From: Roseovarius aestuariivivens
GTDB taxonomy: Bacteria > Pseudomonadota > Alphaproteobacteria > Rhodobacterales > Rhodobacteraceae
Direction: 5' to 3'
Assembly (NCBI RefSeq): GCF_004761875.1
Contig: NZ_SJEY01000001.1
Location: 186,001 to 250,000, forward strand
DNA: 64,000 bases
In this document: in pieces, positions 47,187 through 49,793 of the stretch
Layout: every line of letters starts with the position of its first letter
Position numbering within the stretch: the first letter of the stretch is position 1
The notes under the pieces: generated by a model
Told to the model about the DNA's origin: nothing
The model's input: the letters and a program-made list of their open reading frames with translations, nothing else
Database searches by the model: none
Program-made: the position numbers and the translations under genes

Positions 47187-47305
47187 GGGCGGCGCCTCCC
47201 GGCGTGCGGGTACCTTGATCCAGACCCGGGGCAGCGCACCTGTCCCGGGCCGCAGATGTCTTGTAGGGTCAAAGGGTTTTCATCCACCTATTTGAAAGGC
47301 AATGC

Positions 47306-47968
47306 ATGTCCAGCCCCTACAATTCTACTCCCACCGTTTCCGTCATCGGCTGCCCCCGGAACGACGCGCTGCGCACGCGGCCCTACGCGCCGCTCGGCGC
47401 GGCGGTCTGGACGTCCTCGGGCGATCTTGCGCAGCGCGGCATCACGGCCATCGCGCAGGCCGCGACAGGCACCATGTCGCCCTTCGCCGTTCAGGGCGGC
47501 GAACCCACGCGGAAGTCCGTCTCCGACAGCGTCGTCAACGCGCTGGCGCTCGCGTCCCAGAACGGGCGGGCAAGGCTGGCAATCCCGTTTGTGGCCAGCG
47601 GGATCTTTCTCACCCGGATCATGCCCGCCTGCACCAAGGCCGAACTGGCCGAGATCATCGTCAAGGCGGCGCAGGATAATGACTGCGGCGTGCAGCCGGT
47701 GATCGTCGCCTACGGGGCCGAGGATTTCGGCCTCTTCCAGACCGCGATCTCGTCGCTCGGCGCAACGGGAGTGGAGCTTGTCGAAGGCTCCGTGACGGAT
47801 CACGCCCTGCATGGCTGCGACGTGATCGTCAACGCCGCCAACATGGAGGTGGAGTTCGGCGGCGGCATGTCCGGCAAGATCGGCAGCGCCACCGGCCAGG
47901 AAGCGCAGATCAACGCCGAAGCCCGCAAAGAGCTGCAGGCGTTCTGGGCGGCGAACCCGCCCGGCTGA
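47306..47968 (+). CDS. Macro-domain-like protein, apparently circularly permuted
   Basis: A 220-residue cytosolic protein. The C-terminal third has the macro-domain ADP-ribose motif: VIVNAANMEVEFGGG (Asn176, Gly185-187) followed by the helix SGKIGSATG. The strand and helix pattern usually following that motif appears instead at the N-terminus: GDLAQRGITAIAQAATGT, helix SVSDSVVNALALASQ, then LAIPFVASGIF (resembling the IAFPxISTGIY strand) at about 91-101 and EIIVKAAQDN. So the two halves seem swapped. Binding or hydrolysis of ADP-ribose is inference. It follows gcvP by 119 bases, which contain a GC inverted repeat (47225-47230/47244-47249). A terminator follows. Confidence 0.65.
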   Translation: MSSPYNSTPTVSVIGCPRNDALRTRPYAPLGAAVWTSSGDLAQRGITAIAQAATGTMSPFAVQGGEPTRKSVSDSVVNALALASQNGRARLAIPFVASGIFLTRIMPACTKAELAEIIVKAAQDNDCGVQPVIVAYGAEDFGLFQTAISSLGATGVELVEGSVTDHALHGCDVIVNAANMEVEFGGGMSGKIGSATGQEAQINAEARKELQAFWAANPPG

Positions 47969-47983
47969 GCGCGCAACGAAATC

Positions 47984-48012
47984 GGGGCGGCCCGTCCGGA
48001 CCGCCCCGTCTT
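47984..48012 (+). terminator. Terminator after the macro-domain-like gene
   Basis: A 7-bp GC stem (47984-47990 with 48001-48007), extended by two pairs after a mismatch, is followed by GTCTTTG, 15 bases after the stop codon. Confidence 0.7.
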
Positions 48013-48045
48013 TGGTACTCAAAATGACTGCCTTAAATGGGGCGG

Positions 48046-48101
48046 GCCACGCGGGACAGGCGCGGCCCCTGCCGACGCACTTGGGGAAAAGGCCGCGTGG
48101 C
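48046..48101. other. Structured convergent intergenic region, possible small RNA
   Basis: The 291-base gap between the two convergent genes has no convincing ORF. It holds a perfect 9-bp stem (48046-48054 with 48093-48101) enclosing a CCCC/GGGG inner stem (48066-48069/48083-48086), and to the right an AT-richer block with the palindrome GGTGAAAGAATTCACC at 48158-48173. A small RNA or regulatory-protein site is possible; nothing proves expression. Confidence 0.3.
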
Positions 48102-48259
48102 AGTTAAACGTCTGTCGCGGCCATAGCGCGAAAGGTTCAAAACTTTTGTAACGTTTGGGTGAAAGAATTCACCGTGCCGAGGTAAAAGCGGCTTGCCCTT
48201 GGCCCGGGGTGCGGCGACAGGCACCCGCGACGCGCCCCATACGCGGTGCGCGGACCGCT

Positions 48260-48919
48260 CTAGGTCTCGTCGGTCCAGGGCAGCAGGGCTTTTTCAAGAT
48301 GGTCCTGAAGCTCCTGCTTGATCCGGCGCTGTCGCTTGCCGCGCACGGATTCCGTCGTCATCCGCTCGGCGCGCAGAGCCCAACGTCCGTCGCGATGCGC
48401 GATCTGAAACACCCGGCGCGCGAAGACCAGCTTTTGCTCGGCCGAATAATCGGCAATGACCCAGATCTCGAAACTGTCGAACTCCATGCGGTCGGGCGAC
48501 GCCTCGTTTTCTCCGGCCTTGCCGTAGGTGCGCTCGACAAGGTCCTGAAACCGACCGATATTCAGAAACTCGCCAGATTTCAGCGGCCCGTCATGCGGCG
48601 TCACGATGCGTGCCCCGCTTTTGGTCGTCGCCTCTTCCGACAGGCCGCCCGCCGCCGTGATCGCCGTGCTCCAGCGCTGCTTACCGCATTTTAGCACGAG
48701 GATGATGCCTTCCACATGGATGGCCTCGGCGCTCATGTTGCTGATCAGGCATTGCGCGTCCATGCCCGTGCCCGCCCCGGGATGGATGATCAGGCTTGCG
48801 CGCAGCTGGCGGCGGTAGCTGCTCCAGAAAAGCTGCAGATAGGTCATCCAGATGGGCACCATGGCGACACTCGCCACCACGGTGATCAGATCGCTGTTCT
48901 GTCGCAGAAAATCGAGCAT
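48260..48919 (-). CDS. Membrane-anchored hypothetical protein
   Basis: A 219-residue protein with one N-terminal helix (LITVVASVAMVPIWMTYLQL) and a beta-rich body (ASLIIHPGAG, CLISNMSAEAIHVEGIILVL, FEIWVIADYSAEQKLVFARRVF), ending with a basic helix (RGKRQRRIKQELQDHLEK). I do not recognise a family. ATG 48919 starts 10 bases after the stop of the inositol monophosphatase gene on the same strand, so the two are probably one operon. Confidence 0.75.
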   Translation of the reverse strand: MLDFLRQNSDLITVVASVAMVPIWMTYLQLFWSSYRRQLRASLIIHPGAGTGMDAQCLISNMSAEAIHVEGIILVLKCGKQRWSTAITAAGGLSEEATTKSGARIVTPHDGPLKSGEFLNIGRFQDLVERTYGKAGENEASPDRMEFDSFEIWVIADYSAEQKLVFARRVFQIAHRDGRWALRAERMTTESVRGKRQRRIKQELQDHLEKALLPWTDET

Positions 48920-48929
48920 ATCGTCCTTT

Positions 48930-49793
48930 TCAATCCGCGAGGAAGGCGAACATAGCGGCCAGCTTGTCCCAGGTTGCCTGATCCGGCGCGGCCAGAAGAT
49001 AGCCGTCCTCGAGGCCCGCGTTGTAGTCCGAGCCATCCAGCATCCGCACCACGCCGCCCGCGCGCTGAAAGATCAGAACGCCCGCCGCGTGGTCCCACGG
49101 GTTCATCGTGCCGGAGATGGTGAAATCCATCGCCCCCTGCGCCAGCATCCGGTACTCGTGGCACGAACAGCGCAGCATCTGCGTGCGCGCGAATTGCGGC
49201 AGCAGGGCCGCCGCCTGCGCGCGCTTGTCCTCTGGCAAAAGGTACAGATGCACGAACCCCGACAGATCCTGCGGTGCGCCACCCCTGGCCACGGACAGGC
49301 TGCGCGCCGCCCCTTGCTTGCGCGACATCCGCGCAGGCCCGTTTTCCTCGGCGAGGATCCAGTCATCCATGATCGGATCGTAAAGCAGCCCGAAGACCGG
49401 CACGCCAAAGCGGGCGACCGACAGGATCACCCCGAATAGCGGCAGCCCATGCGCAAAGTTCCACGTCCCGTCCAACGGGTCGACGATAAAGGCAAGCTCC
49501 GCCTCGGCCAGCCTGGCGCGCACGCCGTCTTCCCTTGCGGCCATTTCCTCGCCCACGACCAGCGCGTGGGGAAACATGCGCTGAATGCCGCGCAGGATCA
49601 TCGCCTCGGCGGCCTCGTCGGCCTCGGTCACAAGGTCGAACCGATGCGCCTTGGTGCCCACGTCGCCCGCACCCAGATTACGAAAGCGCGGCAGGATCTC
49701 GGCCCTGGCGGCGCGCCGCACGAGATTTAGGATGGCGGTCGTTTGCGCAAGGCTCAGCGGCGAACTGAGCGGGATGGGCAGGCTGTCGGACAT
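48930..49793 (-). CDS. Inositol monophosphatase family protein
   Basis: A 287-residue Mg2+-dependent phosphatase. The motifs VGEEMA (GEE), IVDPLDGTWNFAHGLPLF (metal-binding DPLDGT) and GTMNPWDHAAGVLIFQRAGG are all conserved. In bacteria these enzymes (SuhB, CysQ-like) act on inositol phosphate, histidinol phosphate, or PAP; which one cannot be decided. The hypothetical membrane protein gene follows directly. Confidence 0.92.
   Translation of the reverse strand: MSDSLPIPLSSPLSLAQTTAILNLVRRAARAEILPRFRNLGAGDVGTKAHRFDLVTEADEAAEAMILRGIQRMFPHALVVGEEMAAREDGVRARLAEAELAFIVDPLDGTWNFAHGLPLFGVILSVARFGVPVFGLLYDPIMDDWILAEENGPARMSRKQGAARSLSVARGGAPQDLSGFVHLYLLPEDKRAQAAALLPQFARTQMLRCSCHEYRMLAQGAMDFTISGTMNPWDHAAGVLIFQRAGGVVRMLDGSDYNAGLEDGYLLAAPDQATWDKLAAMFAFLAD

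Follow-up and report, generated by a model that had tools for sequence, protein, structure and literature searches.

Circularly permuted macrodomains have been reported in Dictyostelium APL and in rice and Arabidopsis, together with crystal structures and binding of PAR or ADP-ribose; in the available part of that report, the rice and Dictyostelium domains are said to retain the usual fold, the Asp of GDIT is described as contacting the adenine, and Dictyostelium APL carries FHA and PBZ domains (PMC5087659). PDB entry 5lw0 has the title Oryza sativa APL macrodomain in complex with ADP-ribose and, judging from that title, is the rice protein (Q10MW4) of the partly available report. Within the available portions of the literature searched, permuted macrodomains appear only in PMC5087659 and a bacterial one was not seen, and the accessible parts of PMC9503650, PMC7824862, PMC8003356 and PMC8195603 contain nothing on a permuted macro domain.

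Here we describe an open reading frame in a stretch of 64,000 nucleotides of Roseovarius aestuariivivens DNA (the window) that very probably encodes a single stand-alone circularly permuted macro domain, a predicted binder of ADP-ribose-type ligands. Permutation of the macrodomain as such is already known in eukaryotes; what is new here is the bacterial host and the site of the cut.

Results

Domain order and conserved residues

The ORF occupies 47306-47968 on the forward strand, encodes 220 amino acids and is matched in Pfam and phmmer searches; its GC content per codon position (0.636/0.527/0.882) is near that of gcvP (0.653/0.451/0.847). A Shine-Dalgarno-like stretch, GAAAGG, is located immediately 5' of the ORF, the start of which lies 119 nt 3' of gcvP in a gcvT-gcvH-gcvP cluster (gene names assigned by eye). 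No counterpart of residues 1-27 was found by sequence. Residues 28-149 (47387-47752, forward strand) comprise the later part of a macro domain, running from the P.G.AV.T strands through a helix, the LAIPFVASGIF strand and loop, a further helix and the VIVAYG strand to the last helix. Within this part S98-G99-I100-F101 (47597-47608, forward strand), termed loop 2, is the counterpart of the ISTGVYG phosphate loop in alignments A2 and A5, with G99 invariant in A5. The linker SLGATG (residues 150-155; 47753-47770, forward strand) fills the gap between the matched pieces and joins the ancestral C and N termini, which are thus bridged by about six residues. The normally first part follows at residues 153-203 (47762-47914, forward strand; phmmer and hhalign) and is composed of the VELVEGSVTD strand, the DVIVNAAN strand, the GGGMSGKI loop and the start of a helix. 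The V175-N-A-A-N179 motif (47828-47842, forward strand) and G185-G186-G187 of loop 1 (47858-47866, forward strand) both fall on invariant columns of A2, and Asn176 and Gly185-187 are found in the last quarter of the chain, where the initial annotation had placed them. The cut is located between the helix that follows the GGG loop and the strand starting P.G.AV.T.

The NAAN (176-179), GGG (185-187) and S/T-G loop 2 (98-101) elements are all present. The adenine-contacting Asp of GDI(T) is absent, its place in GSVTD being taken by Ser162 with Asp165 nearby, and the IHTVGP segment is altered to IAQAATG. The loop-1 Asp, which characterizes MacroD-type hydrolases (GGGVDG), is also absent, the sequence here being GGGMSG with Ser189.

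Sequence evidence for the permutation

Pfam Macro (PF01661) matches the whole protein with an E value of 5.5e-8, its 33.2 bits exceeding the cut-off of 22. The match falls into two stretches, of which the better aligns residues 28-103 with profile positions 40-109. In a genome-wide search with the same profile the separate halves reach 19.4 and 14.9 bits, both short of the cut-off, and profile positions 39-110 lie upstream of positions 1-34, so that the canonical order of elements is not found. The same reversal is apparent against Escherichia coli YmdB (PDB code 1spv), with phmmer aligning residues 154-198 with chain positions 3-44 and residues 28-148 with chain positions 60-171; the segments preceding the NAAN and GGG motifs, proposed from the sequence alone to be what normally follows them, are indeed the later part of the domain. 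With a profile built from eight ordinary macro domains the whole protein scores 42.6 bits and its best domain, in which residues 156-203 align with positions 5-49, scores 25.5 bits; positions 66-168 score 17.0 bits in those rotations where the later half becomes the best domain, and the two pieces have no overlap. Any reported domain was obtained from 160 of 200 shuffled controls, the best with 5.9 bits. The macro match is more than chance because the profile scores are far above those of the shuffles and the codon-position GC content is like that of gcvP.

Aligned by hhalign with the eight ordinary macro domains, the native sequence matches over only 51 columns (residues 146-199; score 54.3, E value 7.8e-8), whereas the sequence with its ends rejoined in silico matches over 161 columns spanning the whole domain (score 75.7, E value 2.3e-11). 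A scan of 44 rotations peaks at residue 155 with a score of 77.3 over 164 columns, compared with a maximum of 24.6 for 100 shuffled controls. The rotated sequence, aligning over 161-164 columns, contains all parts of a macro domain once. When five ordinary macro domains are rewritten in the permuted order (alignment A2) they align collinearly with the protein at 25-31% identity. Rotation brought no gain in HMMER, where the Pfam Macro score is 33.6 bits compared with 33.2, in two stretches as before, and the best PDB E value is slightly worse (4.6e-7 compared with 2.2e-7); we attribute this to an insert of ~50 residues, formed by the old C-terminal tail and residues 1-27, that parts the halves. 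The circular permutation claimed in the initial annotation is thereby borne out by two complementary pieces in reversed order and by an hhalign match that becomes full-length only with the ends rejoined.

Predicted structure

Alignments that mixed fragments of both halves were mostly misplaced by MAFFT, with some small mixes having the motifs right and the tails wrong, and for this reason two half-covered alignments, A5 and A7, were folded separately. The AlphaFold model from 34 later-half fragments (model 1) has a mean pLDDT of 69.9 and a pTM of 0.61, with values below 50 at residues 1-25, 55-62 and 166-194. Its secondary structure elements follow the macro order starting from the cut, and residues 151-160, which cross the junction, have a mean pLDDT of 95. 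Structural alignment with VIA-align matches residues 5-151 of this model to macro domains from about their residue 40 on, YmdB (PDB code 5cms, chain A, residues 40-174) giving a Z score of 8.9 and 3.2 A over 121 residues with 23% identity. The highest row for model 1 (Z score 9.1) is 3v45, a designed serine hydrolase that is likewise matched by the macro profile. Foldseek returned no match to model 1 at an E value of 1e-3 or better; macro domains make up most of the 50 rows listed.

The model from 33 first-half fragments (model 2) is weaker, with a mean pLDDT of 58.9, a pTM of 0.52 and values below 50 at residues 1-65 and 97-103. The top row for model 2 is 5lw0 chain A, collinear over residues 85-210 (Z score 6.8, 3.7 A, 120 residues, 25% identity), a match that is suggestive only because unrelated folds reach a Z score of 6.6 there. 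Structure prediction, put forward in the initial annotation as a check, thus recovers a macro-like arrangement for residues 5-151 in model 1, but a complete fold is reached with confidence in neither model, and the two partial models show it only in part.

Comparison with known macrodomains

The halves are swapped in both the APL-type domains and the Roseovarius protein, with the NAAN/GGG part placed after the STG-loop part. The rice cut was located by profile matches to PDB sequences rather than from coordinates: a profile cut as in the Roseovarius protein (A2) aligns positions 40-165 with residues 23-159 of 5lw0 in one stretch, and a profile cut before FPAISTG (A6) aligns positions 1-143 with residues 40-198, also in one stretch. 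In 5lw0 the chain is cut after the IHTVGP strand, leaving the P.G.AV.T/IHTVGP pair C-terminal, whereas in the Roseovarius protein the cut precedes P.G.AV.T and the pair is N-terminal, the rice cut being one structural unit later. Separate permutation events are favored because the cuts differ and because 5lw0 is not among the 46 PDB matches of the native protein in phmmer at E values up to 10; from these sequence comparisons the permutation looks independent of the plant one. Further differences are that Dictyostelium APL carries additional domains whereas the Roseovarius protein stands alone with 220 amino acids, and that rice APL keeps the adenine Asp (D175, in the available part of PMC5087659) where the Roseovarius protein has Ser.

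Each half also matches ordinary bacterial macro domains, including YmdB (PDB codes 1spv and 5cms), DR_2288 (PDB code 9w48) and the MacroD-type domain of Oceanobacillus iheyensis (PDB code 5fud), from all of which the Roseovarius protein differs in the order of the halves. MacroD-type domains differ further in having the loop-1 Asp in place of Ser189. A GGGxxG loop without Asp is shared with a group that we take by eye to be AF1521-like on the basis of GGGxAG and IQ.E (PDB code 1hjz and the genome loci L140, L144, L114 and L128). In this group the helix after the loop starts with IQ.E, to which INAEARKEL of the Roseovarius protein is similar, and L144 is the best phmmer match among the eight genome loci (41.2 bits). 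The four AF1521-like loci are unpermuted, however, and all keep the GD of GDI/GDL.

Search for relatives

No permuted relative came out of the search for homologues and their neighbors suggested in the initial annotation, which here covered sequence collections and genome samples. In the genome_contigs collection an 8-mer pattern scan, which by our estimate is insensitive below ~70% identity, gave 69 stretches with none confirmed, and a wider scan gave at least 593 stretches, with eight confirmed among the matches listed, all eight in the ordinary order. In viral_contigs none of six stretches was confirmed in one scan and two of 166 in a second, both in the ordinary order. The only viral_contigs match to the pattern VNAAN(4)FGGG belonged to a non-macro protein and was rejected. 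Neither the plasmids (72,556 records) nor the phages (50,697 records) contained a permuted relative.

The whole-genome samples overlap, and the Roseovarius genome is counted in each. Two of the 295 genomes of the family sample matched at an E value of 1e-3, its own and one (G235) over residues 148-201 only; eight of 398 matched in the phylum sample and, at an E value of 0.1, 14 of 84 in the genus sample (83 besides its own), in both cases full-length in its own genome only. In the samples of the order (390 genomes) and the class (385 genomes) its own genome was the single match at an E value of 1e-4. For Pfam Macro in 378 genomes of the phylum, the matches listed run through almost all of the profile in order with one exception, which covers positions 43-118 and lies at a contig edge; these matches are ranked best-first and a permuted protein would fall among the weak ones, so they say little on frequency. 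At E values up to 10 its own genome contains no Macro match besides the protein itself. Two genomes of the same class (G578, G643) contain weak Macro matches, two apiece with a best E value of 0.04, and no strong one, a pattern resembling that of the Roseovarius genome which may be due to chance. Taking the absence of a permuted relative from the samples together with the absence of the gene within 1.5 kb after gcvP in all 29 congeners (30 loci fetched, one being its own), the gene looks like a local gain.

A side observation concerns one of the eight confirmed genome_contigs matches (L138, 3803-4351), from an uncultured Aquimarina: this macro gene has one in-frame stop between its halves, a few residues from the equivalent of the Roseovarius cut.

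Discussion

In the proposed arrangement the chain starts with the strand that normally comes after the post-GGG helix and runs to the normal C terminus, then passes through the SLGATG linker into the normal N-terminal strands and the NAAN and GGG motifs, ending with the post-GGG helix. With its ancestral termini near each other and the cut located in a surface loop, the permuted chain would fold into an ordinary macro sandwich. The usual pocket, which may accept an ADP-ribose-type ligand, would then be formed by loop 1 (N176-N179 and G185-G187) and loop 2 (S98-G-I-F101). A possible source of such a ligand is the one sirtuin of the genome, seen as a single SIR2 match; KptA and DarT gave no match there at an E value of 1e-3. 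With Ser162 and Ser189 replacing both Asp residues, a binder or a weak deacylase is expected rather than a MacroD-type hydrolase, an activity that is unlikely from the sequence. The chance that the protein binds ligands of the ADP-ribose type, with weak processing at most, is about even.

Other explanations have to be weighed against a single permuted domain. The protein could be a decaying recombinant of two macro genes, its frame still open but its product neither folding nor binding. The changed GDIT Asp and IHTVGP segment, residues 1-27 of no traced source, the modest model confidence and the lack of a permuted relative in the searches made are all consistent with decay, which is nevertheless unlikely given 220 stop-free codons with GC content by position like that of gcvP, intact NAAN and glycine loops, and flanks (47187-47305 and 47969-48300) in which a six-frame search found no macro fragment better than an E value of 0.4. 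The two ends of the protein are not alike, a fraction of 0.574 of shuffles reaching their score. An internal DNA repeat matching at 22 of 25 positions (47488-47512 and 47940-47964) exceeds all of 300 codon shuffles and was considered as a trace of the origin; nothing is drawn from it because gcvP has a similar 85% repeat and its two copies do not share a reading frame.

Descent by transfer from a eukaryotic APL-type permuted macrodomain would account for the general likeness of the swap and for 5lw0 heading the rows of model 2. The opposite placement of the P.G.AV.T/IHTVGP pair and the absence of 5lw0 from the phmmer matches make this quite improbable. The short junction linker would also suit two incomplete macro modules acting as halves of a domain-swapped dimer; the pieces, however, do not overlap and jointly make one domain, the junction is confidently modeled within a single chain, and the rice and Dictyostelium permuted domains reportedly keep the usual fold in the available part of PMC5087659, leaving very little room for such a dimer. 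Hardly any probability attaches to an ordinary unpermuted domain with an unrelated N-terminal extension, a reading that could draw on the 51-column span of the unrotated hhalign match: residues 28-148 align on their own, in both sequence and structure, with the remainder of the macro domain, the ORF ends too early for those strands to follow, and phmmer, the model 1 match and the rotation scan all contradict it.

For the single permuted domain, an origin apart from the plant permutation would follow from the different cut sites. We consider it somewhat probable that this is the first prokaryotic circularly permuted macrodomain, independent of the plant and slime-mold ones and with a new cut before the strand after the post-GGG helix. 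If so, the macro fold has been permuted in nature at least twice, and the binding domain has its termini in a new position, with residues 1-27 perhaps forming a new lid over the cleft. Two permutations at different sites would offer a direct test of which connections are needed for folding and ADP-ribose binding, and a stand-alone bacterial example with new termini is a possible scaffold for ADP-ribose reagents and sensors. The gene reveals no new pathway. More permuted proteins may be overlooked because profile searches can split such a protein into fragments below the cut-off.

The placement of the gene behind the glycine-cleavage operon, as first described, is correct for its position after gcvP. 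Membership of the gcv operon is doubtful because the spacer 3' of gcvP can adopt a GC-rich hairpin of 10 bp (47225-47249, forward strand) and because none of the 29 congeners examined has the gene there; all 119 nt of the spacer fold no better than their own shuffles (z -0.10). On the opposite strand 3' of the macro ORF are a 258-amino acid protein with no family in a Pfam search (48260-49036, reverse strand) and then an inositol monophosphatase. In one of the 29 congeners (L030) a 55% homologue of the 258-amino acid protein sits between gcvP and the phosphatase gene, with no macro gene, indicating that the content of this spot differs between species. A permissive scan, run with no shuffled control, places a hairpin in the first 120 nt 3' of gcvP in 29 of 29 congeners (L012-L040), and in several of them it is of the GGGGCGGCC type. 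Directly 3' of the macro stop codon an 11-bp hairpin (47983-48008) has a terminator-like score on the reverse strand, the scan of the macro region finding one such hairpin compared with 1.1 expected from shuffles. This hairpin resembles those following gcvP in the congeners, and blastn ties it to some of those spots.
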